Of a DNA stretch of 64,000 nucleotides, positions 6,152 through 64,000 are shown piece after piece. The stretch's first letter is position 1, and every line of letters starts with the position of its first letter. The translations under genes were made by a program, and so were the position numbers. Location of the stretch: contig JAHDLC010000038.1 in NCBI GenBank assembly GCA_018436595.1, positions 1-64,000 on the forward strand. The letters are read 5' to 3'. The DNA is from Synergistaceae bacterium. GTDB lineage: Bacteria > Synergistota > Synergistia > Synergistales > Aminobacteriaceae. The notes under the pieces were generated by a model. That model saw only the letters and a program-made list of their open reading frames with translations. It made no database searches and was not told the DNA's origin.

Positions 6152-7057
6152 ATGCCCGAAGCGACCGTTGTCATTCCGCTTTTCAACAAGGGGCCCTATA
6201 TCGGGCGGGCGCTCTCATCCGTCCTGAACCAGGGGCTGCAGGATATTGAAGTCCTGGTCGTGGATGACGGTTCCTCGGATGACGGTCCCGAACAGGCGGC
6301 GGCCTTTCGTGACCCCCGCGTCCGCCTGATCCGTCAGTCCCACGGCGGCGTTTCCTCGGCGCGGAATAACGGAATCCGGTCCGCCTGCTCTCCCTTTATC
6401 GCCTTTCTCGACGCGGATGACGAATGGCGCCCCGTTCACCTGGAAACCCTGCTTCGCCTCCATTCATCTTTCCCGGACGCAGGAATATGTGCCACGTCCT
6501 ACATGTTCATCTTGCCTGACGGGACCATGCGAATGCCTACATTCTCCGGATTTCCCGGTCCGCCCTGGGAAGGGCTCCTGCCTGACTACTTCAGGGCTGC
6601 GGCCATGGGCAAACCGCCGGTCTTTACTTCGGCTGCAGGAGCTCCCAAAAAAGTGCTGCACGAGGCAGGGCTCTTTGCCGAGGGCGTCCATCTTGGAGAG
6701 GATCTTGACCTCTGGGGACGGATAGCCCTGGAGTACCCGGTGGCGTTCAGTCATTCAGGCCCTTCCTGTTACAGAAAAGACGCCGGAAACCGCCTGTGCG
6801 TGCGCATTTCCCGGGAGCGGGAACTGCCCTTTGTTGCAACTGCCCGTGCCAGGCTTTCCGAAGGAGCAGTGCCGGATCATCTGGTTCCTTCGCTCAGGGC
6901 CTATTGCTGCAAGCTGGTTTATCTTTCCTGCAGGCATCTGCTTCGTGCCGGGCGAACTGAGGATGCGGCCCTGCTGCTTCACGACTCGGGTTTTGAACAC
7001 GAAGAAAACGGCCATATCAGGAGAATAGGGACCGCCATTGCCGGGAAGGGGGGGTGA
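6152..7057 (+). CDS. family 2 glycosyltransferase
   Basis: GT-A fold transferase of about 301 aa. It shows VVIPLFNKGPYIGRAL at the N-terminus, then LVVDDGSSDDG for nucleotide-sugar binding, then FLDADDEW as the DXD metal motif. HLGEDLDLWGRIAL near residue 190 supplies the acidic catalytic region. It probably adds a sugar to a surface glycan or lipid carrier; donor and acceptor are unknown. ATG 6152 follows AAGGAGGGG at optimal spacing, better than the upstream in-frame ATG at 6050. It overlaps or abuts the next glycosyltransferase, so the two form an operon. Confidence 0.88.
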   Translation: MPEATVVIPLFNKGPYIGRALSSVLNQGLQDIEVLVVDDGSSDDGPEQAAAFRDPRVRLIRQSHGGVSSARNNGIRSACSPFIAFLDADDEWRPVHLETLLRLHSSFPDAGICATSYMFILPDGTMRMPTFSGFPGPPWEGLLPDYFRAAAMGKPPVFTSAAGAPKKVLHEAGLFAEGVHLGEDLDLWGRIALEYPVAFSHSGPSCYRKDAGNRLCVRISRERELPFVATARARLSEGAVPDHLVPSLRAYCCKLVYLSCRHLLRAGRTEDAALLLHDSGFEHEENGHIRRIGTAIAGKGG

Positions 7058-7059
7058 GA

Positions 7060-8295
7060 ATGAGAATTCTTCACCTCTTGAGCCAGCGTCCGGATTCTAC
7101 GGGAAGTGGAACAATGCTTCAGTCTATCCTCACCGAATCGGAAAAATCCGGACATGATAACATGGTCGTGGCGGGCATACAGGAAGGCTCTCCCCCGATC
7201 TTCCCCGGTCTTTCACATCTCCGGACCCGTTTCGTCACCTTCGGGGGAGGAGACCTCCCCTTCCCGATACCGGGCATGAGCGACGTCATGCCCTATCCGT
7301 CCATGCGGTTCTCCGACCTGACGGACCGGCAGCTTTCCTCCTACAACGATGCCTTCAGGGCGGCTGTCCTGGAGGCTGCGGCCCTGTTCCAGCCTGACAT
7401 TATCCACTCGAACCACCTCTGGCTGCTCACCTCTCTCGCCCGCCGCACCCTTCCTGGCATTCCCATGGTGGCAACGTGCCACGGAACAGATCTTCGGCAA
7501 ATGCATGCATGCTCCCGATTCAGGCAGGACGTTGTCTCAGGGTGCTCCGGTCTTGACGGGGTATTTGCGCTGTATTCAGGGCAGGTGGAGGAGGTGCGGC
7601 AGCTCTACGGAATTCTTCCTGAACGGATCCACGTCACAGGCGCCGGATTCCGGAGCGGGCTGTTTGTTCCGGGAGAGAAAAAGACGGATATTCCGACAAT
7701 CGTCTATGGGGGAAAACTCAGCCGCGCCAAGGGGGTACCCTGGATGCTCCGGGCATTCGCTTCCGTCACTGATCTGCCGTGGACGCTGTTTCTTGCCGGA
7801 GGTGGAACGGATCCCGAACGGGCCGAATGCCTCGACCTCGCCGGGAGGCTCGGAAACCGCGCAGTCATTGCAGGATCTCTGAGACAGGAAGAATTCGCGG
7901 CTGCCCTGTCCGGGGCAAACCTGTTCATTCTCCCTTCCCTTTACGAGGGGCTTCCCCTGGTGCTCCCCGAGGCTCTTGCTTCCGGCTGCCTCTGTCTTGC
8001 CACCGACCTGCCGGGTGTCAGGGACATCCTCAAAATCGCGGGAAAGGACTGGCTCCGGCTGATCCCCTGCCCTCCCCTGGAAGGGGCTGATACCATCACG
8101 CCGGGGTACGAACCGAAATTCGTCAGCGACATTGCCGCAACACTGAGGAAGGCATTGACGGACATCTTCGAAAGGTTGCCTTCGGCGGAATCGTACAGAG
8201 AACTGGCGGAACGGCTGAAAAACAGCACGTGGCAGGCGGTGTTTCAGAGGATGGAGAAGGTCTACTGCGCTCTTGCAGACCCAAAATCCCGGTGA
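7060..8295 (+). CDS. family 4 glycosyltransferase (GT-B)
   Basis: About 411 aa, GT-B fold. The N-terminal half begins MRILHLLSQRPDSTGSGTML and contains the acceptor-side motif TCHGTDLRQM. The C-terminal half has GGKLSRAKGVPWML and the donor-binding segment FILPSLYEGLPLVLPEALASGC with its paired Glu residues. It likely extends a surface polysaccharide with the preceding GT2. ATG 7060 is preferred to GTG 7054, which sits in the upstream stop codon; a G-rich stretch at 7045-7053 is the probable ribosome site. Confidence 0.88.
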   Translation: MRILHLLSQRPDSTGSGTMLQSILTESEKSGHDNMVVAGIQEGSPPIFPGLSHLRTRFVTFGGGDLPFPIPGMSDVMPYPSMRFSDLTDRQLSSYNDAFRAAVLEAAALFQPDIIHSNHLWLLTSLARRTLPGIPMVATCHGTDLRQMHACSRFRQDVVSGCSGLDGVFALYSGQVEEVRQLYGILPERIHVTGAGFRSGLFVPGEKKTDIPTIVYGGKLSRAKGVPWMLRAFASVTDLPWTLFLAGGGTDPERAECLDLAGRLGNRAVIAGSLRQEEFAAALSGANLFILPSLYEGLPLVLPEALASGCLCLATDLPGVRDILKIAGKDWLRLIPCPPLEGADTITPGYEPKFVSDIAATLRKALTDIFERLPSAESYRELAERLKNSTWQAVFQRMEKVYCALADPKSR

Positions 8296-8602
8296 ACCTG
8301 TATGCGCGGCCGGTGCAACAACGGAAGCCTGCCCCTCTTTGCAGATTGAATGGGCAGCAAGACAAGCTTTTATGCAGGCTAGAGATAATGGAACCCGTGT
8401 TCCCTTTCATGCGGGGAAGTTTATAGATCGTCGTAACGTGTCGGACCTTGTGTCCGCCCACCGCAGTATCACCAATCTCCTTTCATAGTTCCAGGAGGGG
8501 GGCGTTGTTGTTCCTCCTTCCTTCTTTCTCTGATCGCCGCCAGAAGTGGAGTACTGCTTTTTGTCGGTTGTCTTTCACATAGCATATGAATTCAAAACAA
8601 TT
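8296..8602. other. intergenic stretch, possible small ORF remnant
   Basis: About 300 bases between the glycosyltransferases and the toxin-antitoxin promoter. A plus-strand frame ending at 8488 has coding-like composition from about 8340 (QIEWAARQAFMQARDNG) but no convincing start or recognised family. A GGAGG/CCTCC hairpin near 8493-8517 followed by pyrimidine-rich DNA may end transcription of the glycosyltransferase operon. Confidence 0.3.
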
Positions 8603-8632
8603 TTGACATAGCTTTACTGCTTGTGCTAAAAT
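8603..8632 (+). promoter_or_regulatory. sigma-70 promoter of the higBA module
   Basis: TTGACA at 8603-8608 and TAAAAT at 8627-8632 with an 18-base spacer, in an AT-rich stretch just before the toxin gene. Confidence 0.7.
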
Positions 8633-8650
8633 CAGATAGACGTGATTTTT

Positions 8651-8669
8651 ATTAACCTTAAGGGTTAAT
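8651..8669. promoter_or_regulatory. palindromic operator of the higBA module
   Basis: ATTAACC (8651-8657) and GGTTAAT (8663-8669) form a dyad just downstream of the promoter. The antitoxin carries an XRE helix-turn-helix, and such antitoxins usually repress their own operon through a dyad here, so autoregulation is the likely role. Confidence 0.6.
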
Positions 8670-8690
8670 GTTTATTTGCGGAGGGCGATT

Positions 8691-9044
8691 TTGGAGATAT
8701 CCTTTATCAGCAGGAAGCTTGAAAAGGAATTCAACGAGGGGGCGCGGCTCGTGAAAACGTACGGGCCGGAAAGAGCCAAAAAGATAGGCACACGGATGGC
8801 GGCAATTCGAGCGGCCGTCACGCTCCTCGATTTCTGGCCTCCGAAGACAGGGCCTTCCCGCTGCCACGAGCTGACGGAGGGGAAACGGAAGGGCAAATTC
8901 CATCTTTCTGTGGATCTGGATCACCCGTACCGTTTGATTTTCACTCCTGCTCACGATCCGATCCCGACGCATGATGACGGCGGTCTGGATTGGTCTAAAG
9001 TAACTGCCGTCACAATTCTGGGGGTGGAGAACACTCATGAGTAG
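8691..9044 (+). CDS. higB: HigB-type (RelE superfamily) toxin
   Basis: About 117 aa, matching the HigB family of RelE-fold, ribosome-dependent mRNA interferases. Visible family features are the N-terminal helix EISFISRKLEKEF, the basic segment KTYGPERAKKIGTRMAAI, and the C-terminal strands FHLSVDLDHPYRLIFTP and VTAVTILGVENTH. TTG 8691 is favoured because GGAGG lies seven bases upstream; the open frame starts at TTG 8676, which overlaps that ribosome site. It overlaps the antitoxin gene by eight bases, the usual toxin-first order of higBA. Confidence 0.82.
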   Translation: MEISFISRKLEKEFNEGARLVKTYGPERAKKIGTRMAAIRAAVTLLDFWPPKTGPSRCHELTEGKRKGKFHLSVDLDHPYRLIFTPAHDPIPTHDDGGLDWSKVTAVTILGVENTHE

Positions 9045-10134
9045 CACGCGAACCAATCAATACTGCCCCGACTACCTGACGACGCCGGGCGAGGTGCTTC
9101 TGGAATATCTGGAAGATCTCGGCATGACGCAGGCCGAACTCGCCGACAGAACGGGGCTTGCGAAAAAGACAGTCAACGAAATTGTGAAGGGGAAGTCGCA
9201 GATCACTCCCGAAACCGCGCGGAAGCTGGAGAAGGTTCTGGGTCGCCCCGCGCATTTCTGGAGCAACCTTGAACGCCAGTATCAGGATGACAAGGCCCGC
9301 CTCGCCGAACGAGAGCGGATGGAGTCCGGCATAGCGTGGCTGAAGAGGTTTTTCGTCAAAAAAATGACCGATCTCGGATGGCTCCCCAAGCACAAGGACA
9401 AGACGGATCAGGTGGAGTCGCTTCTGCGCTTCTTCGGAATCGCCTCCCCCGATCAATGGGAGACCGTGTACCGCGGATACCAGGTCTCCTACCGGCAGAC
9501 GAAGAGCTTCGCGTTTTCCGAAGAGTCTCTTTCCGCATGGCTGCGGAGAGGGGAGATTCTCGCGCAGGGCGTCTCCTGCGCTCCCTTCGACCGCGCTCGT
9601 TTTCAGGAGGTGCTGGAGGATATCCGCGGCCTGACGCGAGAGCAGCCGGAAAACTTCGTACCGCGCCTGAAAGAGCTGTGCTCTTCCGCCGGAGTCGTCG
9701 TGCTCTTCGTGCCGGAGCTGCCGAAGTGCGGCGTCTACGGCGCCACGCGCTGGATCGGCGACAATCCCGTCATTCAGCTCAGCCTCCGCTACAAGAGCAA
9801 CGATCACCTCTGGTTCACCTTCTTCCACGAGGTCGGGCACATCCTCAAGCACGGCCGTAGAGACGTGTTCATCGAATTCAAGGGGATTGACAGAGAAAAG
9901 GAAGAGGAAGAAGCGGACGTTTTCGCGTGCGATAAGCTCATTCCTCCGGCAGCATTGAAGGCGTTCCTTCAGAGGAAGGCTTTCACGCGCGCTGACCTCG
10001 TAGGCTTCGCCGATGAGATCGGCATCGCCCCCGGCATTCTCCTCGGACGCCTGCAGCACGACGGGATTTTGCCATTCACACACTATCTCAACAGCGAGCT
10101 GAAGCTCTTTTACGAGTGGGGGGAAGGGGCGTGA
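9037..10134 (+). CDS. higA: HigA-type antitoxin: XRE helix-turn-helix plus ImmA/IrrE metallopeptidase
   Basis: About 365 aa in two parts. Residues 10-80 are a HigA-like XRE domain (TPGEVLLEYLEDLGMTQAELADRTGLAKKTVNEIV). The C-terminal half has the ImmA/IrrE zinc-peptidase motif HEVGHILKH followed by EEEEADVFACDKLIPP. Short HigA proteins lack the peptidase; this extended class is common in plasmid and chromosomal modules. It likely neutralises the upstream toxin and represses the operon through the dyad at 8651-8669. Whether the peptidase cleaves the antitoxin itself or another repressor is not visible. Confidence 0.85.
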   Translation: MSSTRTNQYCPDYLTTPGEVLLEYLEDLGMTQAELADRTGLAKKTVNEIVKGKSQITPETARKLEKVLGRPAHFWSNLERQYQDDKARLAERERMESGIAWLKRFFVKKMTDLGWLPKHKDKTDQVESLLRFFGIASPDQWETVYRGYQVSYRQTKSFAFSEESLSAWLRRGEILAQGVSCAPFDRARFQEVLEDIRGLTREQPENFVPRLKELCSSAGVVVLFVPELPKCGVYGATRWIGDNPVIQLSLRYKSNDHLWFTFFHEVGHILKHGRRDVFIEFKGIDREKEEEEADVFACDKLIPPAALKAFLQRKAFTRADLVGFADEIGIAPGILLGRLQHDGILPFTHYLNSELKLFYEWGEGA

Positions 10135-51641: not shown

Positions 51642-51851
51642 ATGGAATTGTGGGAGATGACCGACGCTGAGCAGGAAGCTGCCGCAGGTGGAGGCCGGTT
51701 GTTCGAATTCATAGGACTGGTCTTCTTCGGCCTCCATGGGGTCGGGTACTACTCCCCGCGCCGGACCCACCGCCCCATCACCCTGTCGGCTTCGGCGAGG
51801 ACGAGCCACAGTTCCTGGATTGCGTTTATCAGCTCCGTCCTGCTTTTCTGA
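51642..51851 (+). pseudogene. second precursor remnant with double-glycine motif
   Basis: A plus frame 54 bases after the Nif11 stop reads MELWEMTDAEQEAAAGGGRL then FEFIGLVFFGLHGVGYYSP. The stretch before GGG mirrors the tail of the intact leader (MTDEELEAVIGG) and a hydrophobic core-like part follows, but the Nif11 body is missing and the frame continues antisense into the TolC-like gene. In the same frame, coding-like residues (EREEIFRNCPFRREEM) precede the ATG. Likely a truncated third copy. Confidence 0.4.
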
Positions 51852-53005
51852 TCGGCTTCCTGCGCTGTGATCAGGTCAAGCTGGGATCCCAGCCCCTCGC
51901 GGTACATCATCTCGGCGATCTCCAGCTCCTTGTCGGCCCGCTCGGCCTGGCGGCGGCGGATGGTGACGATTTCGAGCGCCCGTCCCCATCGTTCGCGGAC
52001 GAGCTCCGCCTCCTTCTTCAGGCTGTCGCGCCTCGCCTCCAGTTCGTACTCGGCCTTTCGGAGAAGCAGCGCGGCCGCCTCGGTTGTGTTGGCCGTTTCC
52101 CCCCCGTCTGTCAGGGGAACTGTCAGCACGGCGCGGACGAAAACCTCTCCGGCCCTCTCATCGGCGATGGCAGAGGAGGAGTCCTGTCTCACCCGCAGCC
52201 CGACGGAGAGGTCAACGAACGGAGAGAGCCCCTTCGCGGCGAGCGAGCGCTGTACGGAGGCGCGTTCCCTGGAGAGCATAAGCGAGGCGACGTCCGGACG
52301 GAGCCCCCATGCCTTCTTCTCGTCGATGTCGGGACGCAGTTCCTCGAGTTGGGGGAGCATGATCTCCGGCGTGACCGAAACTCCCCCTGCCAGGGCGCTC
52401 ATCTCGACCAGCTGCTGCTCGTACTTCTGGCGTGCCTGGAGGAGAAATGCTTCGCCGTCATCAACCTGCGACTGAGCCCGAAGCAGCTCCAGCAGGGAGA
52501 CCAGCTCCTTGTCGAACTTCTCGCGGGTGATCAGCATCGACTCGCGGCGCTTTGCCACGATCTGCTCCATCGCCTCCCGGTTCAATGCAGCCATCACCGC
52601 CTGGCGGTAGGCGGACGCGGCGAGGGCGAGCCGTTCGTTGACCGCATCGGCGTACTGGTTCCGGAGAATCTCGACTCCGAGGAGAAGGTCCCGTTCCTGG
52701 AGTCCGTAGGTTCCCGAGAGGTTGACGCGGTGGGAGAGGGAAAGATCGATCTGCTGATCGCCCCGTTCCTGGTCGAGCCACTTGCTTGCCTCGGCGGAGA
52801 GCCCAAGAGAGGGGCGCTGAACGGAAAGCTCCGCCCTGGCGGAGAAAAGCCGCGCCTCGATCTCCTGGCTGATCGCAGCAAGGTCGTTGTTTCGCTCCAT
52901 CACAAGCGCCAGGTACTGTGCTTCCGAAATCGGCGCGGAGAAGACCGCGCCGGGAAAGAGAAAAAGAAGCGCAGGCAGTGCGGCGAAGAACATGGTAAAT
53001 TTCAT
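51749..53005 (-). CDS. TolC-like outer-membrane efflux protein
   Basis: About 418 aa. Signal peptide (FFAALPALLFLFPGAVFSAP), then two OEP repeats rich in long amphipathic helices, each with the family's RE..L/ALA pattern (LGLSAEASKWL, NQYADAVNERLALAASAYRQ, GLRVRQDSSS, KEAELVRERWGRALEIVTIRRR). ATG 53005 lies five bases after GGAGGATCC; the frame extends upstream without support. A trimeric outer-membrane channel for the adjacent peptide exporter is the probable role; an HlyD-type adaptor is not in the window. Confidence 0.88.
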   Translation of the reverse strand: MKFTMFFAALPALLFLFPGAVFSAPISEAQYLALVMERNNDLAAISQEIEARLFSARAELSVQRPSLGLSAEASKWLDQERGDQQIDLSLSHRVNLSGTYGLQERDLLLGVEILRNQYADAVNERLALAASAYRQAVMAALNREAMEQIVAKRRESMLITREKFDKELVSLLELLRAQSQVDDGEAFLLQARQKYEQQLVEMSALAGGVSVTPEIMLPQLEELRPDIDEKKAWGLRPDVASLMLSRERASVQRSLAAKGLSPFVDLSVGLRVRQDSSSAIADERAGEVFVRAVLTVPLTDGGETANTTEAAALLLRKAEYELEARRDSLKKEAELVRERWGRALEIVTIRRRQAERADKELEIAEMMYREGLGSQLDLITAQEADQKSRTELINAIQELWLVLAEADRVMGRWVRRGE

Positions 53006-53178
53006 GGGATCCTCCTTGTCGTCACTTCGGCAGGATGGGAATTTCGGTTTCTCGGAATCCATTCTACTCTTTGGGGGAGCAATGAATCCATACGGCGCGC
53101 AGAATCCGTGAAAAATCATAGCCGGAGACTGCTGCATAACCGGCGCTGACCGTAAAGGTATACACAGGAAAAGGTGCG

Positions 53179-53610
53179 GTGAAAAAAGAAACCAAATCAC
53201 TGCCGGAAACGCTGCAGTCTGATCATATTGCAGGATTTTTTGGGGGAAACCCGGTTCTGCAGCTGTTCAGCGAGCCGCTGATTGACAACACTGCCAAGCT
53301 TTGTCATACTATTCCGGTATATTCTATCGACTTGGTCGGCCTTTGAAAAGCGGATATTTTGCTCTCCGACGAATCGCTGGAATCTGTTTTCCCCGGAACG
53401 GCCATCGTTCAGAGGTCTTTGATCGGGACTGTGAATGTGGTGCGCAAGAAGCAGATGACGGCCGCCTATTTTCTACCGGTATCTTTGTATTATAGCCAGA
53501 CGCAGGTTCATAAATCGATCGGTTGGTATTTTATATCAATTCGATTTCAAGTATTGGCTGAGGCATTGTACGTTTCAGCCAAAATACTCAACAAAGGAGA
53601 ACGGATATGA
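53179..53610 (+). pseudogene. reading frame interrupted by one in-frame TGA, upstream of the second precursor
   Basis: GTG 53179 (after AGGAAAAGG) opens 55 coding-like codons (KKETKSLPETLQSDHIAGFF) to a TGA at 53344. The same frame goes on with KADILLSDESLESVFPGTAI and ends at 53610 in an ATGA overlap with the Nif11 start. The second part resembles a leader tail. No family recognised. It could be a broken gene or two short ORFs that share a frame by chance; a candidate promoter lies inside it. Confidence 0.35.
53282..53312 (+). promoter_or_regulatory. candidate promoter with 19-bp spacer before the second precursor
   Basis: TTGACA (53282-53287), 19 bases, TACTAT (53307-53312). GACAA (53284-53288) and TTGTC (53301-53305) form a short dyad across the spacer. 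The spacer length recalls the two MerR-type promoters at 50.9-51.0 kb, but the dyad core differs and it is 300 bases from the precursor. Confidence 0.4.
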
Positions 53611-53876
53611 CGATTGACAGCGCAAAGGCATTGGCTGCAAAAGTTTTAACGGACGAAGCTCTGGCGAAAAAATTGGGTGACGCGAAAACCGAGGCGGAAT
53701 TTAATGCGGTGGTTGCAAAACTGGGGTACACCTGCACAGCGGTGGAATTTGAGGCTGCCTTCAAAGAGGCACAGGAAAACACGCCACTCACTGATGAGCA
53801 GCTGGACCAGGCGTCCGGCGGTTTGAGCATTGTCGGTGTGGATTACGCATTTGTAGCTGTTCAAACATCAAAATAA
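53607..53876 (+). CDS. Nif11-type RiPP precursor with 17-residue core
   Basis: 89 aa. Nif11 leader residues 1-72 (DSAKALAAKVLTDEALAKKL, TEAEFNAVVAKLGYTCT) end in LTDEQLDQASGG with the double glycine at 71-72. The predicted core is LSIVGVDYAFVAVQTSK: five Val/Ile-type residues in the first eleven, one Tyr, a C-terminal Lys and no Cys, so thioether bridges are excluded within the core. AAAGGAG precedes ATG 53607. It heads a run of four radical-SAM genes, with a hairpin between them that should keep precursor mRNA in excess. GC and codon use are lower than in flanking housekeeping genes. Confidence 0.88.
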   Translation: MTIDSAKALAAKVLTDEALAKKLGDAKTEAEFNAVVAKLGYTCTAVEFEAAFKEAQENTPLTDEQLDQASGGLSIVGVDYAFVAVQTSK

Positions 53877-53959: not shown

Positions 53960-55711
53960 GTGGAGGTACTTTTTATAAAATCGCATCGCTATGTCAGCGG
54001 CTATATTCCCGGAAGCAACCTGGGAATGAACATATTGATACAATTGCTGACACGAAAAGGATATTCAGCCCGGATGTACCAGGGCTATGCCAAAGAAGCC
54101 CTGAATTATGTGAAAGAACTCATGGACAGCGAGGACCGGCCGAAAGTCATCGGTTTTTACTGTGATTTCGACAATGTTCACTGGGTGAAGACCTTTGCGC
54201 GGGAAGTGAAAAAAGAGTACCCCGAAGTGATTCTGCTGGCAGGCGGTCCTCAAACTGTCGACATGGACGCCGTTTTTTTTAAAGAGACGGGTATTGCCGC
54301 TGTCTGCATCGGAGAAGGGGAAGAAACGGTTCCGGAGCTCATGGAGTTTTTCATCCATCATCGCGGTGCTCTGGAGGCGATCCAGGGAATAGCGTTTCTG
54401 GACGCCTCGATGGAGCTTGTGAAAACACCCCCGAGAACCCCGCCGGAGGATCTGGATGATATTCCCTGGCCGGACATCACCTTGACCAACGATTATAAGC
54501 ACTACGCGCTTCTCCCCATTTTAACCGGACGGGGCTGTCCTTTCGGATGCACCTTCTGTTACGAGGGGGCCAATGCCAAACGGGTGCGCCGCCACTCGGT
54601 TCCCTCGCTGATGAAGGAAATAAGGGCGAATTTTAAACGCAATCCGGACATAAAGTATATTAATTTTCTTGATGACACTTTTACGCTGGATTCAAAACGG
54701 GTCCGTCAGATTTGCGAAGAGATCAGAGAAATCCGGAAAGAATATGATTTCGTATGGTTTGCCAGCGCCCATATTTCACTCATCGACAAACACCGGGACA
54801 TGGCACGGAATCTGGCGGAAGCAGGGCTGAAAAAAATCTTCTTCGGTCTGGAATCCGGCAGCGACGCGGTTTTACAAAGCTATAACAAGAAAATAACCCG
54901 GAAAATGGCGGTGGACGTCATCGAGCATTGCGTTGCATCGGGTATTTCCGCTATTTCCGGCAATATTATCCTGGGAGGTCCCCACGAAACCCGGGAAACC
55001 ATTCGGGAATCCGAAGATCTGATCATGGAACTGCTTCACCGGGCGCCGGGGCAGTTTGAAACCGCCTATTTCTCCTTTCTGCCTTTTCCCCAAACGCCTA
55101 TTACGATGAATCCTCAAAAATTCGGGATGGAAATTTACGGGGACCTCATCGACTGCTGCAACGAAGACATTCCTCTATCAGGAACGAAAACGCTGGATTT
55201 TCTCGATCTTACCCAGATTCGGCTTGAGGCCAACAGGCGACTCCAGAATGAAATGCGGAAGATCTATCTCGACGGAAAGATTCCCGAGGCCGTGATTCTG
55301 GATGCGTACCGTTCAGGAGGGCGCTACGGAGTGTTTACCCGCTGGAACGACTATGTGTACAAAAATCTGCCCATTGACGATGCCTACTGGAAAATGCGGG
55401 TTTTCGGCGGGTATGCCGTCAGCAGCCAACTGGGAGCTTGCCAGGAGGACGCCATCCCGCACCGGACCTTCGAACTGTGGCTGTATACCGACATCGGCGG
55501 GGAAAAACCGAAGATTTTCGATACAGTTCTGGACGAAATAGACTATACCCTTCTTCAATTATGCAGCGGGAAACTCTCGAAACGGGAAGTACTTCAGCAG
55601 GGGAAAATGATGCTTGACCCTTCGGGGTGCCGGCCTGATTTTTACACACGGGCGGAAGAATCGCTGAATTTCCTGGAAAAGAAGAAATGGATTCTCTACC
55701 AGAAAGCATGA
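53960..55711 (+). CDS. B12-binding radical SAM RiPP maturase (module 1)
   Basis: 583 aa. Residues 1-150 form a cobalamin-binding-like Rossmann domain (VIGFYCDFDNVHWVKTFARE, ILLAGGPQTVDMDAVF, CIGEGEETVPELMEF) without DxHxxG. The radical SAM ligands are C193, C197 and C200 (GRGCPFGCTFCYEGAN), followed by FLDDTFTLDSKR, KKIFFGLESGSDAV and GNIILGGPHETRET. The last 60 residues (DYTLLQLCSGKLSKREVLQQ and onward) resemble a PqqD-type winged helix for leader binding. GTG 53960 follows GGAGG at seven bases. Likely modifies the upstream 17-residue core; C-methylation is a known activity of B12 relatives, epimerisation or cyclisation are alternatives. Confidence 0.87.
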   Translation: MEVLFIKSHRYVSGYIPGSNLGMNILIQLLTRKGYSARMYQGYAKEALNYVKELMDSEDRPKVIGFYCDFDNVHWVKTFAREVKKEYPEVILLAGGPQTVDMDAVFFKETGIAAVCIGEGEETVPELMEFFIHHRGALEAIQGIAFLDASMELVKTPPRTPPEDLDDIPWPDITLTNDYKHYALLPILTGRGCPFGCTFCYEGANAKRVRRHSVPSLMKEIRANFKRNPDIKYINFLDDTFTLDSKRVRQICEEIREIRKEYDFVWFASAHISLIDKHRDMARNLAEAGLKKIFFGLESGSDAVLQSYNKKITRKMAVDVIEHCVASGISAISGNIILGGPHETRETIRESEDLIMELLHRAPGQFETAYFSFLPFPQTPITMNPQKFGMEIYGDLIDCCNEDIPLSGTKTLDFLDLTQIRLEANRRLQNEMRKIYLDGKIPEAVILDAYRSGGRYGVFTRWNDYVYKNLPIDDAYWKMRVFGGYAVSSQLGACQEDAIPHRTFELWLYTDIGGEKPKIFDTVLDEIDYTLLQLCSGKLSKREVLQQGKMMLDPSGCRPDFYTRAEESLNFLEKKKWILYQKA

Positions 55712-57396
55712 AAAGGCCGCCCCTCGTTCTCCTCGTGTACACCCAGCGGCTTGTTCCGGGGCGAACCTTTGAAATGATCGGGAACCTGGGGGTTCTCACC
55801 CTGGCGGCCCAGCTCAATGCCGGCGGCTTCGACGCAAAAGCCTATACCGGTATCACCACCGATGTCGTTAAAACCATCGGAGGAATAAAAGACCGCCTGT
55901 TCGCTGTCTGTTTTTACTGCGACTTCGACAATCAGTCGGCGGTGGCAGCCATTATCAATGATCTGAAAAAAGAAGCCGGAAATGCCTTTTACGTAGTGCT
56001 GGGAGGACCGCACACGCTGCACATGACGGAACGGGATCTGGAAAAATACGGCGCGGACGCCATCATCAAGGGAGAAGGGGAAGAATCCCTGCCCGCATGG
56101 CTGGGGGCGCGCATTTCGGGAGAAACGGCCGCCGTGCCGGGAGAAATCCTTCCCCATGAGAATCCGGAGTACGTCTATCTGGAGGATTTCTCTCACTATC
56201 AACTGCCACAGGATGAAGCTGTGCCGGATTATTCGGAGAGACCCCTGATGTCGGTGATAACGGCCAGAGGCTGTCCCTACCGGTGCGCATTCTGTTTCGA
56301 AGGCGGCAATTCGAAAAATTTGAGAATGCGGACTGCGGACGATGTGTTGTTCGAAATCGAAACACGGCTGCAGAAAAGCCGGGGTCCCCGGTACCTGTTT
56401 TTTTGCGACGACACCTTCACCGCCAATCCTCAAAGGCTGGAAAAGCTGCTTGCAGGATTGAGACGCCTTCGAAAAAAACTTGATTTTGTCTGGTTCTGCG
56501 AAGGGCATCCGGGGTTTCTTTCACAACGCCCGGAGCTGATCAAAGAAATGATGGAGAGCGGTATGGTCCGGATGCAGATCGGGATGGAGTCCGGAGCTGA
56601 TTCCGTTCTTCAGGCCTACGGGAAGCAGGCCGTCCCGGAGGACGTGAAGAATGTTGTGGATACCTGCTACCGAGAGGGACTGCCCCAGCTCGCAGGAAAC
56701 TTTATCATCGGCGGGGCCTTTGAAACTCCGCACACCCTCGAGGCAACCACCCGTTTTGCCCTTGACCTGCTCGAGCGGGCTCCGGGGATGCTGGATTTAT
56801 CCACTACCTTTCTGACGCCGCTGCCGGGTACCCTGATCTCCGGGGATCCCGGGCGTTTCGATATCGTGCTGGAAGACCAGGACTGCCTCACCTCAATGGA
56901 GGATTTTCCGGTGAACCGAACCCGGGAGCTGTCCCTGCCGGAAATATGCAGGGCACGCTCCGCCTTTCTCACACGCGTTTCGAACACCATGAAAGAGCAG
57001 TTCAGGAACGGCCGGATTCCCGAAAGGCGGATTCGCCGTGACTTCGAGCTTGCCTTTCGATATGGCATCGCGGCGGGGTACCTGAAGTTTATCTACGGCC
57101 GGAACCCGGTCATGGTGAGTTACTATCGAAAACTTACGGAGTACCGGGGGCTTTTGAAGGAATGGGAGGAGCTTGAAGGTGCTCAAAAGGAACGGTATGT
57201 CATCCAGCGCATTCCGGATTTTTCGCAGGTGGATTTCGAAAGCCTGAACGGGATGGAATCGGAAATTCTTCTGGATGCAGGTTTGTATTCGGTGGACGAG
57301 ATGGCGAAGAAGCTGGCCGTATCGGCTGAGGAAATGGCCGTGTACCTTGAAGGACTGAGCCGCCGTCATCTGGTGTTATTTTCCCCCTGCCTCTGA
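55708..57396 (+). CDS. B12-binding radical SAM RiPP maturase (module 2)
   Basis: About 562 aa, same plan as module 1. Rossmann part (VCFYCDFDNQSAVAAIIN, VVLGGPHTLHMTERDLEK, IKGEGEESLPAW), radical SAM ligands C189, C193, C196 (ARGCPYRCAFCFEGGN), FFCDDTFTANPQR, RMQIGMESGADSV and GNFIIGGAFETPHT. The C-terminal end (SEILLDAGLYSVDEMAKKLA, then VYLEGLSRRHLVLF) is the winged-helix-like part. ATG 55708 overlaps the previous stop (ATGA); ATG 55687 is possible. Divergent from its neighbours, so a different reaction or site is likely. Confidence 0.86.
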   Translation: MKRPPLVLLVYTQRLVPGRTFEMIGNLGVLTLAAQLNAGGFDAKAYTGITTDVVKTIGGIKDRLFAVCFYCDFDNQSAVAAIINDLKKEAGNAFYVVLGGPHTLHMTERDLEKYGADAIIKGEGEESLPAWLGARISGETAAVPGEILPHENPEYVYLEDFSHYQLPQDEAVPDYSERPLMSVITARGCPYRCAFCFEGGNSKNLRMRTADDVLFEIETRLQKSRGPRYLFFCDDTFTANPQRLEKLLAGLRRLRKKLDFVWFCEGHPGFLSQRPELIKEMMESGMVRMQIGMESGADSVLQAYGKQAVPEDVKNVVDTCYREGLPQLAGNFIIGGAFETPHTLEATTRFALDLLERAPGMLDLSTTFLTPLPGTLISGDPGRFDIVLEDQDCLTSMEDFPVNRTRELSLPEICRARSAFLTRVSNTMKEQFRNGRIPERRIRRDFELAFRYGIAAGYLKFIYGRNPVMVSYYRKLTEYRGLLKEWEELEGAQKERYVIQRIPDFSQVDFESLNGMESEILLDAGLYSVDEMAKKLAVSAEEMAVYLEGLSRRHLVLFSPCL

Positions 57397-57548: not shown

Positions 57549-60500
57549 GTGAAAACGATCAACCTGAGACTGATGCTGATTCATCGCGGAACGAGAACCC
57601 ATTCGATCACCCAGATCGAGCCCATCGGTCTTATGTCGCTGGCGGAGATGATGACCGGCAAGGGGATCGAAACGGCCGTTTTTTCAGGAGAGCTGCTGAA
57701 AGGCCTGGAATTCCTGAACGCGGCTGGCTGCAGCCGGAACACGGTAGTGGGATTATATTGTGATTACGAGAATCAGTCGGCGGTCGAGAGTTTTTCCAGG
57801 GTGGTCAAGGAGCGTTTCGGCGCCGTCGTTCTGGTGGGCGGACCCCAGACCGTGGGGCTGGGAGAAGAGTTCCTGCGGGCGAGCGGGGCTGACGGGATCA
57901 TGCGGGGCGAAGGGGAGTACTCGCTGCACGACGCTCTCCGCGCATTGGAAGAAGACCGGAGGGACCTGTGGGAGACCATCCCCGGGATGTGTTCGTTCAG
58001 AAAGGACGGGACCTGGTACGACAACGGGATCTATCCCGTCATCGAGGATCTGGACGCCGTCCCCGGCATTTCGGGAACCATAAAATCGGCCCAGCACCGC
58101 GGCATCAATCACATGGCGGTGATGACGGGACGGGGGTGTCCTTTCCACTGCTCTTTCTGTTACGAGGGGGCCAACAGCAAGAACGTCAGGCAGCGCAGCG
58201 TGGCGTGCGTCATGAAGGAAATACGCCGGCGCCTGCGGGAGAATCCCAATGTGAAGTATCTCTTTTTCTGCGACGATACCTTCACCCTGGATATGAAACG
58301 GGTGCGCGCCTTTTGTGATGAACTGAAAGAGCTGAGGAAAGAGCACGATTTCGTCTGGTTCGCCGACGCCCATGTGAACGTGGTCATCAAATATCCCGAA
58401 ATGGTGAAGATGATGGTGGACGCCGGCCTGGTCCGGATGCAGATCGGCATTGAAAGCTGCAACCAGCACATCATAGACATCTATAACAAAAACGTGAAAC
58501 GGGAAGGGTTCTTCGAAGTCATTGAGATATGCAAAGCGGCCGGACTTCCGCAGCTGGTGGGCAACATCATCATCGGCGGGGCTCTGGAAACGCGGGAAAC
58601 GCTGAATTTTACCTTCGACACCGTCTATGAGATGCTGCGCGCGGGCCGCGGAATGGTGGAAGTGGTCAGCACTTTTTACATGCCCTTTCCGGAAACCGCC
58701 ATGTCAAAGGATCCCGGCGGGTACGGCCTTTTTGTGAGGGACGAAAAGGCGCTCACCTCGGTGGGGGATTTTCCGGTGATCGAGACGGAGACACTGAGCA
58801 TCGAAGAAATCTGCGCGGCCCGAAACGAGTTTTTTGAAGGGACGACCGGAGTTATGCGGAAAATGTTCCGCGACGGCGAAATCCCGGACGAGACCGTGCT
58901 GAAAAGCTGCGAGCTGAGTGAAAAATACGGTCTCAGCGGGATGTGGCAGAGTCTTGCGTACGCCAGATACCCCTATTTCGACGCCCAGAACAAGGCGCGG
59001 GTCCGCGGGGATAAGCTCACACGGGACTATGATCTTTCAACGGTGTTTGAAACCCATCCCCAGCGCATTGCCCTGCTTTCCCTGACACCTGAGCTGGCGG
59101 CGGAAATTCCGGTCCTGAACGGATTTGTCTACTCGCCCTTTGAATTCGACGTCCTGACGTACACCTCCGGCAAACTGTCCATGCTCGAAATGGCGGAGGC
59201 GCTTTTCCCCAAGTATCAGACGAGCTTCGAAAGTTTTGAGATGTTCAGGCTCCATCTGCTGGAAACCGTCAAAAAACTGGAAGCGGCGGGAATGTGCGTG
59301 CTGTCCGGCTCATTGAAGCCGAAAGCGGCCGATCTGGAATGGAAAAATCAAAAACACTCAGAGGAGCGCCCTGTGAAAAACAAGGTCATTCTGTTCAAAG
59401 TATCGACCATCAGTATGGAGATAGCCGGCTTCAGCCGAAACGGAGCCTTTCTGGGACTCTACAGCCTGGTAAGCTACCTGAATGAAAAAGGGTATGACGC
59501 CGTTGCCTGCGAATGCAGGCCGGACCAGGTCACGGAGCATCTTCGGCGGCTTCCGTCCGGTGAAATATGCTGCGTCGGTTTTTCGGTGGACTTCGAGAAC
59601 AGGCACGCAGTGAAAAAAATCAGCGCTTCCATAGCGGAATCCTGCGGGATACCTGTGCTGATCGGCGGCCCCGAAGCTCTTTCTCTGGATGAGGAGTACC
59701 TGCGCGGATCAAAGGCAGCCGCTGTCGTGCGAGGCGAAGGTGAACTGGCCATGGCGGCGGTACTGGATGCATTGAAAGAAAAGAAGAGCCTCGGTGATAT
59801 TCCCGGAATCTTCTTCATCGACGAAAACGGGAAGTGCATCGACAGGGGAGAAGGGCCGGTGGTGGAAAATCTTGATGAGCTGCCCTTCCCTGACTACGAT
59901 AAAACCATGACGCCCATTGATTACTCCAACCTGTACATCATGACCAGCCGGGGCTGCCCCTATCACTGTGTCTTCTGTCATGAAGGCGCCCTGAAACGGC
60001 CCGTTCGCCGGCGGAGCGTCGCGAATGTCGTCGCTGAAATGCGCTCCCTGCTTCTCAAATATCCGGAACTTCGCTACTTTTTATTCTGCGACGACACCCT
60101 GGTCACCAGCCCCGAATGGTTGGATGAATTTTGCCGGGAGGTAAAGGCGCTTCAGGCCGTCAGACCATTCCAGTTCTATTGCGAGGCTGATGTCGCTTCC
60201 CTGAGCAGACGACCCGGGGTCATTAAGGACATGGTGGCGGCGGGGCTCAACAGGCTGCAGATCGGCATAGAATCCGCCGACAGGGAGATGCTGAAGACAT
60301 ACCGCAAAAACATCACTCCCGAAATGGTGGAAACAGTGGTGAAAGCGGCGTATGACGCCGGAGTCCAGCAGGTTTTCGGCGCGATCCTGGTGGGAGGGCC
60401 CTTCGAGAACCGCGGGCATATCGAAAAGAACAAAGCCTTCTGCGCAAAGCTGCTGCGGCTGGGGCCGGGGATGATGGAAATCGCACCCAGTATCCTGATG

Positions 60501-61139
60501 CCCTATCCAATGACCGATATCGGGCAGCACCCCGAAAAATACGGGCTGACGATTTACGACAGGCAGGGGCTGAGAAGCATCTCCGATTATCCCCTCATGG
60601 AGAGCGAAACCATGGATCGGCGGGAGATCATGGCAGCCTACCAGGAGTACATTCAGAGCTTTGTGGACGAAGTGAAGGCGATGCTGAACAGCGGCGAGCT
60701 CGGCCATGAGGATCTTCTGCGCTGTCACCGCGCCTCCATGAATTCAAAGGGAGCGAAATACTGGGTGAATATCATAGCCCACCATAAACCTTTCCTCACA
60801 ACCTATTACACTCTGCTGGCACGGGAGGCAGCCTACCGCATCGCGGATGTGAAGCCGGATGAGCTTCCCGGATGGCGCCCCCAGCGGCTGATCGAGATGT
60901 GGCGGGATGTGGATTTTTCCCGGGGCTATCCTCTCGTGCGGGGAGAGGCGCTGTCGCCTTTTGAATACGAGGTGCTGAAATACTCCACTGGAAAGAGCAC
61001 CATCGCCGATATTGCCGGAATCCTCCACGAGCGGTTCGGAAAGCCGTTCGGAGAAACCCGGGAAGAATTGATGGAGAGAATCATTGAAACCTTGAAGGCT
61101 TTTGACGGAAAATACTGGCTGCTTGTCGTTCCGTACTAG
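57549..61139 (+). CDS. tandem fusion of two B12-binding radical SAM modules (modules 3 and 4)
   Basis: 1196 aa, twice the usual length. Module 3 (1-605): VVGLYCDYENQSAVESFSR, ligands C197, C201, C204 (GRGCPFHCSFCYEGAN), FFCDDTFTLDMKR, RMQIGIESCNQHI, winged-helix-like end YSPFEFDVLTYTSGKLSMLE. Module 4 (609-1196): CVGFSVDFENRHAVKKISA, ligands C803, C807, C810 (SRGCPYHCVFCHEGAL), FCDDTLVTSPEW, RLQIGIESADREM, end LSPFEYEVLKYSTGKSTIAD. Between them GAGGAG (59361-59366) stands seven bases before an in-frame GTG (59373), a relic or working internal start. GTG 57549 follows GGAGG. Confidence 0.86.
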   Translation: MKTINLRLMLIHRGTRTHSITQIEPIGLMSLAEMMTGKGIETAVFSGELLKGLEFLNAAGCSRNTVVGLYCDYENQSAVESFSRVVKERFGAVVLVGGPQTVGLGEEFLRASGADGIMRGEGEYSLHDALRALEEDRRDLWETIPGMCSFRKDGTWYDNGIYPVIEDLDAVPGISGTIKSAQHRGINHMAVMTGRGCPFHCSFCYEGANSKNVRQRSVACVMKEIRRRLRENPNVKYLFFCDDTFTLDMKRVRAFCDELKELRKEHDFVWFADAHVNVVIKYPEMVKMMVDAGLVRMQIGIESCNQHIIDIYNKNVKREGFFEVIEICKAAGLPQLVGNIIIGGALETRETLNFTFDTVYEMLRAGRGMVEVVSTFYMPFPETAMSKDPGGYGLFVRDEKALTSVGDFPVIETETLSIEEICAARNEFFEGTTGVMRKMFRDGEIPDETVLKSCELSEKYGLSGMWQSLAYARYPYFDAQNKARVRGDKLTRDYDLSTVFETHPQRIALLSLTPELAAEIPVLNGFVYSPFEFDVLTYTSGKLSMLEMAEALFPKYQTSFESFEMFRLHLLETVKKLEAAGMCVLSGSLKPKAADLEWKNQKHSEERPVKNKVILFKVSTISMEIAGFSRNGAFLGLYSLVSYLNEKGYDAVACECRPDQVTEHLRRLPSGEICCVGFSVDFENRHAVKKISASIAESCGIPVLIGGPEALSLDEEYLRGSKAAAVVRGEGELAMAAVLDALKEKKSLGDIPGIFFIDENGKCIDRGEGPVVENLDELPFPDYDKTMTPIDYSNLYIMTSRGCPYHCVFCHEGALKRPVRRRSVANVVAEMRSLLLKYPELRYFLFCDDTLVTSPEWLDEFCREVKALQAVRPFQFYCEADVASLSRRPGVIKDMVAAGLNRLQIGIESADREMLKTYRKNITPEMVETVVKAAYDAGVQQVFGAILVGGPFENRGHIEKNKAFCAKLLRLGPGMMEIAPSILMPYPMTDIGQHPEKYGLTIYDRQGLRSISDYPLMESETMDRREIMAAYQEYIQSFVDEVKAMLNSGELGHEDLLRCHRASMNSKGAKYWVNIIAHHKPFLTTYYTLLAREAAYRIADVKPDELPGWRPQRLIEMWRDVDFSRGYPLVRGEALSPFEYEVLKYSTGKSTIADIAGILHERFGKPFGETREELMERIIETLKAFDGKYWLLVVPY

Positions 61140-61153
61140 AAAAAGGTGATGCG

Positions 61154-62866
61154 ATGAAGATTCTTCTCTGCAACGTATCGAAAAAGTACGATACAAACAC
61201 CCATGATTATGTGGGGCTTTTTTACCTGGCGGGCGCCCTGGAAGAGGCCGGCTTTGAGCCTTTGGTGTTTCATGGAAAGCCGGAACATCTCCTGGACGAG
61301 ATAGAAAAGAACAAGCCCCGGGCGGTGGGTTTTTCCTGTGATTTCGACAATGTCCGGGTCATCGAAGACCTGTCAGGGAAAATAAAGAAGCGCTGGGGAA
61401 TTCCCGTTGTTGTGGGCGGGCCCCAGAGCATTGCTCTGGGAAGGGATTTTCTGGAAAAAAGCGGGGCTGACTATATCCTGCGGGGCGAAGGCGAAGTCTC
61501 TCTGCCCAGACTGCTCGATGCGGTCCTGAAGGATGAAGGGGATGTCGACGGGGTGAAGGGGCTGGCGAGAATTCAGGACGGAGTGTTTCTGGAAAACCCG
61601 CCCGAGATCATCGAGGATCTGGATGCTCTGCCCCTGCCGGCGTACTCAGCATCGCTGCATGCGGACCACGCCTACGGCAACTTGATTTTTACCGGCCGGG
61701 GGTGCCCCTACCGGTGCGCATACTGCGCCCCCAGCCCCGGCAAGCGGAAGGTTCGCCTGAGAAGCATTCCGCTGGTACTGGAGGAAATCAAAGTCAATCT
61801 GAAAAACAATCCGGGGCTGAAGTGCCTGATCGTTATGGACGACACCTTCACTCTCGGCCGGGAGCGGATCGAAGAATTCTGCCGCGGCATGACGGAGCTG
61901 CGGAAAGAGCGTGACCTGGTCTGGTACTGTGAATGCCATGTCGGCCGAATCAGGGACTTTATGGATATCCTGCCCGCCATGATCGACGCCGGGCTGATCC
62001 GTCTGCAGATCGGGATAGAATCAGGTGATCAGAACGTCATCGACCAGTACAACAAGCACGTCAAAATCGACGACATCGTTGAATTTGTAACCTACGCGGC
62101 CGACTGCGGCCTCGCCCAGATCGCCACAAACTTCATCGTGGGGGGGCCCGCAGAAAAAGACGGGGCGACCGCCTCGCTGATCCGGACCCTGATCGATCGG
62201 GCCCCCGGAGTCATCGATATCATTACCGGTTTTTTACGGGCCTACCCGGGGACCGAGATCTTCGAGAACCCGGGAAAATTCAACCTGCAGCTCCATGACG
62301 AATCCGGCCGCCGGACCGGGGACGACTACCCGTTCGTAACGCCGGTCGGATGCAGCCAGGACCAGGTGATGCGCCAGCGCCAGGAACTCAACAGGGTGAT
62401 TCGCCGCAGCATGCAGCAAAAAATCAAACACCGCGGGCTGAAAGAGGACGCGGTGAGGAAGCAGTTCGAAGCCGCATTCAAATACGGGATCCGAAGCCGG
62501 TGGTTCGCGGAAATTTCGGCCAATCCCAGGGCCTACGAATATTATTATGTGCTTTTTTTGAACGAGGGCCAAGCCTTTGAGGAATCCCTGGATTTTTCCA
62601 GAGATTATCCCCAGCGGACCTTTGAATTATGGCGCGCCATGACGTTTTCCGACGGATTTCCGCAGCTGGACGGTATGGCGCTCTCGCCGCTGGAGTATGA
62701 ACTGCTGTTGCGCTGCGCCGGCAAACGAAGCCTGAAGAAAATTCAGACCGAGCTTTATGAGGTGTTCGGCGGCTCGTATGAAAACGAGAGGGAATTCCAT
62801 CGGCAGCTCATCGATATGCTGCATCGTTTTGATTCTAAATACTGGCTGACCCATTTCGTGGTGTAG
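61154..62866 (+). CDS. B12-binding radical SAM RiPP maturase (module 5)
   Basis: 570 aa. Rossmann part (AVGFSCDFDNVRVIEDLSG, VVVGGPQSIALGRDF, LRGEGEVSLPRLLDA), ligands C184, C188, C191 (GRGCPYRCAYCAPSPG), VMDDTFTLGRERIEEF, RLQIGIESGDQNV and NFIVGGPAEKDGA. It differs from the others after the cluster: CAPSPGKRKV replaces the C[YFH]EG pattern. The C-terminal winged-helix-like end reads LSPLEYELLLRCAGKRSLKKI. ATG 61154 follows AAAGGTG, 14 bases after the previous stop. Last gene of the operon, convergent with the exporter. Confidence 0.86.
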   Translation: MKILLCNVSKKYDTNTHDYVGLFYLAGALEEAGFEPLVFHGKPEHLLDEIEKNKPRAVGFSCDFDNVRVIEDLSGKIKKRWGIPVVVGGPQSIALGRDFLEKSGADYILRGEGEVSLPRLLDAVLKDEGDVDGVKGLARIQDGVFLENPPEIIEDLDALPLPAYSASLHADHAYGNLIFTGRGCPYRCAYCAPSPGKRKVRLRSIPLVLEEIKVNLKNNPGLKCLIVMDDTFTLGRERIEEFCRGMTELRKERDLVWYCECHVGRIRDFMDILPAMIDAGLIRLQIGIESGDQNVIDQYNKHVKIDDIVEFVTYAADCGLAQIATNFIVGGPAEKDGATASLIRTLIDRAPGVIDIITGFLRAYPGTEIFENPGKFNLQLHDESGRRTGDDYPFVTPVGCSQDQVMRQRQELNRVIRRSMQQKIKHRGLKEDAVRKQFEAAFKYGIRSRWFAEISANPRAYEYYYVLFLNEGQAFEESLDFSRDYPQRTFELWRAMTFSDGFPQLDGMALSPLEYELLLRCAGKRSLKKIQTELYEVFGGSYENEREFHRQLIDMLHRFDSKYWLTHFVV

Positions 62867-62957: not shown

Positions 62958-64000
62958 CTATACCGTCTGCCTGCGGACCAGCTCTGCGAAAAGACCGTCC
63001 TTCGCCATCAGCTCGTCGTACTTCCCCTCCTCGACGAGCCGGCCGTCCTCCAGAACGCAGATCCGGTCCGCTCCGATGACAGTGGAGAGCCGGTGCGCAA
63101 CGACGATGCGCGTCGCCTGGATGTTCTCCAGGCTCCGGCTGATCATCGCCTGCGTTCTGTTGTCCAGGGCGCTCGTAGCCTCGTCGAAGATGAGCACACG
63201 CGGCTTCCCGGCAACGGCGCGGGCGATCAGGAGGCGCTGCTTCTGTCCGCCTGAAACCGTGTTCGCCCCGTCCGTGATGACCGTATGAATCCCCATGGGC
63301 ATCGCGGCGATGTCCTCTTCCATCCCCGCCGTGCGAAGCGCATCCTCTATCTGCCCGGCCGTGAGATTGCGCGAGCAGCGCACGTTGGAGGCTATGTCCC
63401 CGGAGAGCAGTCCGCCGCTCTGGAGGACGACGCCGATCTGCCGCCGCAGTTTCCCCAGGTCCAGTTCGGCAATGTCCTTGTTGTCGTAGAAGATGCCTCC
63501 CGACTCCGGCTGGTCGAAACCCAGGAGCAGCCGGATAAGCGTGGACTTGCCCGCCCCGGAGGGACCGACCACGGCGACGAACTCCCCTGCCTCAATGTGG
63601 AGGTCAAGTCCTTTCAGCACGGGAGGGCCGTCCTTCAGATAGCGGAAGACAACCCCTTCAAGGTCGATACGACCTGTGATTTCGCCCGGGTCGGTCTTCA
63701 TGTCGCCGGTCTCGGGCTCCGCCCGGAGGATGGGTGCGAGGTTCTCCACCAGCGGAAGCATGTTCAGCGTGGCTGTAAACGAGCTGACCATCTGAAAGAA
63801 GGCCCCTTGCAGCGCCCCGAAGGCCGACCAGAAGGCCATGAAGCGCCCCGTTTCGTACGAGGCGTCCGCAGCGCTCCAGCGGACAAGGGCAAAGAGAATA
63901 ACGATGGCGACGGAGAGGGGGAAGAGTGCCATGACCGTGTTCAGAAAAACTTCCAGCCGTCTCGCCTTCGTCCCCAGCATCCGCTGCGCTCCGAACAACT
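62958..64000 (-). CDS. NHLP-type peptide-export ABC transporter, C-terminal part (runs off the window)
   Basis: At least 346 aa; the gene continues past 64000. End of the membrane domain (MALFPLSVAIVILFALVRW, LNMLPLVENLAPILRAEPE) then the ATPase with VVGPSGAGKSTLIRLLLG, the Q-loop region GVVLQSGGLLSGDIASNV, signature VSGGQKQRLLIARA and VLIFDEATSALDN, H-loop VVAHRLSTV. The ATPase features match the exporters paired with Nif11/NHLP precursors (NHLM family), one of which carries a C39 peptidase that cuts after GG. Whether this copy has that domain or is its peptidase-free partner cannot be seen. Presumed exporter for one or both precursors. Confidence 0.85.
   Translation of the reverse strand, partial: LFGAQRMLGTKARRLEVFLNTVMALFPLSVAIVILFALVRWSAADASYETGRFMAFWSAFGALQGAFFQMVSSFTATLNMLPLVENLAPILRAEPETGDMKTDPGEITGRIDLEGVVFRYLKDGPPVLKGLDLHIEAGEFVAVVGPSGAGKSTLIRLLLGFDQPESGGIFYDNKDIAELDLGKLRRQIGVVLQSGGLLSGDIASNVRCSRNLTAGQIEDALRTAGMEEDIAAMPMGIHTVITDGANTVSGGQKQRLLIARAVAGKPRVLIFDEATSALDNRTQAMISRSLENIQATRIVVAHRLSTVIGADRICVLEDGRLVEEGKYDELMAKDGLFAELVRRQTV

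Follow-up and report, generated by a model that had tools for sequence, protein, structure and literature searches.

The window, a 64,000-nt stretch of DNA from a Synergistaceae bacterium, carries on its forward strand a gene at 57549..61139 (GTG start, TAG stop) that encodes a protein of 1196 residues. Pfam detects two Radical_SAM (PF04055) and two B12-binding (PF02310) stretches in this open reading frame, which we divide into modules N and C. Each module has its own CxxxCxxC motif, GCPFHCSFC in N (C197/C201/C204) and GCPYHCVFC in C (C803/C807/C810), and the cysteines of both are invariant among orthologues. A single 1196-residue frame with two full modules and separate clusters, as the preliminary description of this DNA had read it, is confirmed by frame, motifs and Pfam alike. 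From the Pfam match, the radical-SAM core of module N spans residues 193-355 (58125..58613). It is followed by an RRE-like domain at the C-terminal end of the module (residues 495-586, 59031..59306), assigned by alignment to the modelled domain of module C, which is of the same family. Module C has 588 residues (59373..61139; delimited by Pfam, by comparison of the two halves and by the module tree) and ends in its own RRE-like domain, residues 1100-1196, at 60846..61136. Between the modules lies a linker of residues 587-608 (59307..59372) that we read as a former intergenic region which is now translated. It is predicted to be disordered, with pLDDT below 50 at residues 586-608 in the structure model of the fused protein, and it is hypervariable: orthologues differ there by a 4-residue indel and show the highest variability of that part of the protein, with W598 and D595 conserved inside the otherwise variable stretch.

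The model of the fused protein has a mean pLDDT of 75 and gave fold matches to MgmA, CysS, AprD4, TsrM, OxsB and TokK; a sequence profile also detected AprD4, OxsB, CysS and TokK, together with 9ccb. Because the C-terminal domains had no Pfam match, nor a match by sequence profile, we assessed them by structure. A small domain is formed by the C-terminal ~95 residues of a module; modelled alone from 43 sequences of modules N, C, D and A (B not included), it reached a pLDDT of 93. It resembles PqqD (Z 7.5) and the leader-bound RREs TbiB1 (Z 8.8) and LarB1 (Z 8.7); overall, Z ranged from 7.4 to 8.8 with a Foldseek E-value of only 0.02. Each module is thus probably built, as modelled, from a B12-binding domain, a radical-SAM core and a C-terminal RRE-like domain.

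Four collinear B12-binding/radical-SAM genes hold five modules in total, and the fused gene comes third among them. Gene A (53960..55711, +, 583 residues; a monophyletic module type) overlaps by 25 bp with gene B (55687..57396, +, 569 residues; module B), and gene D (61154..62866, +, 570 residues; the sister type of module C) follows the fusion; all were identified by Pfam. Upstream of A, an 89-residue Nif11-leader RiPP precursor is encoded at 53607..53876 (+; PF07862, E = 1.8e-9; TIGR03798, E = 5.8e-12). Its score of 45.7 bits against TIGR03798 (leader_Nif11) exceeds the cut-off of 32.3 and places it among the Nif11-leader peptides, and it ends in ASGG-LSIVGVDYAFVAVQTSK, with a GG cleavage site directly before the core (...ASGG|LSIV). 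Export genes lie downstream of the radical-SAM genes and are convergent to them. The first, at 62958..64000 (-), encodes an NHLM-type bacteriocin-export ABC transporter (TIGR03797, E = 8.6e-145) of 979 residues that runs past the window; the part within the window scores below the full-length cut-off of TIGR03797, and the whole gene comprises ABC_membrane and ABC_tran domains. Next to it come a gene for a C39-peptidase ABC exporter and one for an HlyD protein. By its gene content the cluster is a Nif11-leader RiPP cluster, and the fused gene is one of its four predicted maturase genes; the preliminary description included neither the RiPP precursor nor the three sister genes.

Other genes with a possible part in RiPP biology lie on both sides. 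Just upstream of the precursor, at 51749-53200 (-), is a gene for a TolC-type outer membrane efflux protein, possibly an outer-membrane export component. On the same contig past the window we found a TfuA-domain protein (L008:18126-19802; PF07812, E = 1.2e-29) and two more Nif11-leader peptides (L069:4939-5244 and 1762-2280, minus strand), which together have the appearance of a second RiPP locus immediately after the exporter genes.

We then compared the locus with ~1,100 genomes and, in one scan, with GTDB contigs; Sporomusa sp. KB1 (L068/L074), which had a short or distant match only, was left out. The fused gene has 25 distinct orthologues in Synergistota and Bacillota with 53-86% identity. 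Within Synergistota they are 86, 85, 81 and 82% identical, with a more distant one at 53%; those of many Acetobacterium, of Sporomusa malonica and of Ca. Formimonas share 75-79%, and one order member 67%. All 25 are open through the junction, which rules out an assembly or frameshift artefact. The cluster itself is present in at least three bacterial phyla. In Bacillota the precursor is placed between D and A, and a C39-peptidase ABC exporter follows B in both Bacillota clusters scanned (L050 and L062), with an HlyD gene in L050. Because the distribution is patchy within genera yet identity is high between phyla, the data suggest that the cluster has spread by horizontal transfer. A mobile-element or viral cluster was considered and rejected, as the cluster had neither a viral match nor a PLSDB plasmid match. 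No 16S gene that could have served for taxonomy turned up in the genome of the window. The clusters occur in Acetobacterium and Sporomusa type strains that have been sequenced, among them A. wieringae DSM 1911, and are amenable to experiment there.

The origin of the double gene is best seen in an uncultured member of the Acidobacteria (L065), in which the modules are encoded by genes of their own that lie next to each other as N, C, D. There, N ends in ...LIFTRY-TGA, and C begins ~27 nt further on, without a change of frame, at the TTG of AGGA-N6-TTG. This locus further comprises two copies of A as well as B and the precursor, and its split pair shares 37-39% identity with the fused protein. 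The duplicated A gene, at L065:15929-21340, amounts to a sixth module for the same core. It is the sole split genome found: no second split pair was detected in 396 genomes of Acidobacteria, 300 of the Sporomusa class, 43 of the Ca. Formimonas class, 67 of the Acetobacterium order and 185 of Synergistota. Single-module relatives did emerge from the genome searches, and these form a group of their own (support 78 in the module tree) and lack a relative of the precursor that phmmer could detect. Sporomusa malonica has a second locus (L116) with two adjacent single-module relatives, at 6374-8215 and 8185-10005; the precursor has no detectable relative there.

The preliminary description had proposed a fusion of two genes and had made this depend on split homologues existing somewhere. 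With one split and 25 distinct fused loci now in hand, and with the pair in L065 both adjacent and in frame, the sequences leave a fusion of two genes well supported. Its description of the gene as tandem-fused holds insofar as two genes were joined, but not in the sense of a duplicated half. The two halves have the same domain order and are 32% identical to each other, as would be expected from an internal tandem duplication. In a quick tree of 64 modules, however, each of the types N, C, A, B and D forms a clade (SH-aLRT 100), module C is sister to D (95) and module N groups with B (97), so that neither half is nearer to its partner than to A, B or D; moreover, the split homologue has both as genes. 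We therefore rejected internal duplication, which the tree contradicts and which we regard as highly improbable. The Acidobacteria genes, flagged as long branches by the warnings of the tree, mostly fall with their namesakes: L065_C joins module C (99), L065_D module D (92) and L065_A module A (99), and the Acidobacteria B groups with module B. The L065 N module groups with N plus B and not strictly inside N, which counts against the fusion reading. Since the tree places each module with its namesakes, all five module types probably predate the fusion, which, as far as these sequences tell, joined two different old paralogues. The likely event is the loss of the stop codon of N in an operon where C already lay just downstream in frame, so that the intergenic stretch, with the leader and ribosome-binding site of C, would have become the linker.

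Consistent with such an event, the module boundary retains the elements of a gene start. GAGGAG at 59361-59366 (+) precedes, with a spacer of 6 nt, an in-frame GTG at 59373..59375 (+; codon 609), which, by comparison with orthologues, once began a separate gene for module C. The preliminary description had noted this arrangement exactly between the modules, and we find it there as GAGGAG-N6-GTG; a protein initiated at this GTG would have 588 residues and begin VKNKVILF. Such arrangements are infrequent in the window, where a Shine-Dalgarno sequence of at least 5 nt lies upstream of 16 of 745 in-frame start codons (~2%) and GAGGAG occurs at three places in 15,813 codons (both for 29 long open reading frames). 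Among the 25 orthologues, codon 609 is GTG in 22, ATG in one (G034, a Val-to-Met change), GTA in L136 and AGG in L122. When all 1194 columns were ranked for the joint occurrence of a 4-nt Shine-Dalgarno core and a start codon, codon 609 came first with 76%, the next column reaching 61%. The earlier reading of a relic internal start therefore stands, albeit with the start absent in L136 and L122, and at the level of sequence the internal start is certainly a relic.

Whether it is also a working start is evenly balanced for many of these organisms. Dual initiation at 57549 and 59373, also raised in the preliminary description, would yield the fusion plus a free 588-residue C module, with the signals maintained under selection; its chance falls slightly short of even. 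In addition to the first rank of column 609, it is favored by the sole Val-to-Met change (G034), which keeps a start codon, and by the pattern of change in the linker: E606 and V609 changed twice each on the tree, compared with 13 changes each for residues 607 and 608 in the Shine-Dalgarno-to-start spacer. The Glu codon at 606 is GAG in 78% of sequences; on average, Glu columns use it in 31%. Internal in-frame products are established elsewhere, an example being Cas11b from cas8b (PMC11899642). Against a working start, codon 609 needs three codon changes, compared with a mean of 6.1, but several of the 48 Val columns need no more than three, and by codon changes alone it ranks only within the top seven of them. 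Third codon positions after codon 609 show no distinctive gene-start signature, their conservation being not unusual, and the Shine-Dalgarno sequence is weak in several Acetobacterium (-2.7 to -3.3 kcal/mol). Two fused orthologues have lost the start. L122, the most divergent at 53% identity, has AGG and no substitute start nearby. L136 has GTA, but four codons before it stands an in-frame TTG that AGGAG precedes by six bases, and the start may have shifted to that codon instead of vanishing; L061 and L063 have upstream start candidates similar to that of L136.

The same two losses favor a relic pure and simple, in which the Shine-Dalgarno sequence and GTG persist because the fusion is fairly recent and V609 and E606 are tolerated or structurally preferred. 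Two further observations fit this explanation: an unrelated Val column, 372, was equally start-like by chance in an earlier set of 20 sequences, and W598 and D595 are conserved in the linker without any initiation role. What it accommodates poorly is that the joint conservation of Shine-Dalgarno sequence and start codon exceeds that of every other column while the surrounding linker is saturated with changes. We would put its chance, too, at just under one in two. Split state, fused state and fading start codon are all present in living lineages, and a fusion whose signals are still readable makes it testable whether the second enzyme keeps or loses its independent expression once the genes are joined.

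The peptide core of the cluster has changed very little. The core sequence LSIVGVDY is unchanged in all main precursors of Synergistota, Bacillota and Acidobacteriota in the clusters examined, and LSIVGVDY[AVT]F, the wider core, hardly varies among the three phyla, with a core length of 17-19 residues; the core of the L065 precursor is LSIVGVDYVFVGVQTAS. In several Bacillota clusters an additional precursor, a second or a third, has a variant core (ITLVGIDYPF, TSMIGFDYPF and ARGIDFYENSIW). Our literature search found no paper naming the LSIVGVDY core. In the Nif11-leader RiPP family, cores are often variable. Here, five B12-radical-SAM modules have stayed together in different phyla around a single, almost invariant core, which points to a product that is fixed and serves a general function, and away from a diversifying bacteriocin. 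For this reason the cluster itself is of more value than the fusion.

We consider it rather likely that the gene is a fusion of two cobalamin-dependent RiPP maturases, [B12-rSAM-RRE]-linker-[B12-rSAM-RRE], which acts with its sister enzymes on the Nif11 precursor. The fused enzyme and the three single-module sisters would act on the precursor encoded at 53607-53876, whose Nif11 leader the RRE-like domains are predicted to bind. Each module would carry out one or more radical modifications, and the five modules together successive modifications of the core LSIVGVDYxF, after which the C39-peptidase NHLM exporter would cleave at GG and export the product. Several known B12-dependent radical-SAM enzymes C-methylate peptides: ApyD acts on the beta-carbon of Tyr and TmoD carries out three C-methylations (PMC11002830), and the residues methylated by PoyB and PoyC are Val, Ile and Met (PMC11285071). 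Because these four enzymes do so and Ile, Val, Tyr and Phe abound in the core, B12-dependent C-methylation would be the most likely chemistry. The fused protein is probably a tethered two-step maturase that performs two such C-methylations of one peptide. B12-dependent radical-SAM enzymes also catalyze ring contraction, cyclization or dehydration (OxsB, BchE, AprD4), so methylation is what we infer and no more. The tether between N and C would fix their ratio at 1:1 and allow two steps on one leader-bound substrate without release. The old start of C, with its Shine-Dalgarno sequence and GTG, may still yield some free C module, an optional product since some orthologues have lost the internal start. 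A broader and rather unlikely proposal is that the tandem maturase is a two-step assembly unit for one leader-bound peptide, whose inherited internal start sets the ratio by providing additional free module C, and that the five-module cluster makes a conserved, modified peptide of cofactor-like or signal-like nature in acetogens, Synergistota and Acidobacteria.

As in class B radical-SAM enzymes, an N-terminal B12-binding domain precedes the radical-SAM core and CxxxCxxC occurs in each module. The fused protein scores far below all family cut-offs. It reaches 140.8 bits (as the double protein) against TIGR03975, the RiPP maturation radical SAM C-methyltransferase family, with a cut-off of 281.85, and 186.8 bits against NF050148 (ApyD), with a cut-off of 750; the ApyD match is strong though below the cut-off, and reads as a protein that works like ApyD and not as a member of its family. 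An N-terminal cobalamin domain followed by a radical-SAM core is shared with ApyD, TmoD, PoyB/PoyC and TsrM, the last also a fold match, and ApyD has a fused RRE (PMC11002830); the RiPP maturases of the cited papers are single-module enzymes, whereas here there are two modules per chain and five per cluster. The Nif11 leader, the GG site and a C39-peptidase/NHLM exporter nearby are found with other Nif11-leader (TIGR03798) precursors, but here the LSIVGVDY core is almost invariant across phyla. FO-synthase modules are not known to have a B12 domain, whereas both halves have one here, along with an RRE-like domain. FO synthase does provide a parallel for two radical-SAM modules that share one chain in some organisms and are separate genes in others, as in L065: FbiC is fused in many bacteria, and CofG and CofH are separate in archaea (PMC11917521). 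FbiC makes a deazaflavin from small molecules, whereas the context here is that of a peptide precursor. Cas11b, the internal in-frame product of cas8b (PMC11899642), likewise depends on a start codon inside a longer open reading frame, which here could yield the C-terminal part; the internal start of the fused gene differs in that it descends from a separate gene. Fused and split pairs and internal starts are thus already documented, and what is particular here is a fused B12-rSAM-RRE pair in a Nif11 RiPP cluster together with an almost invariant core.
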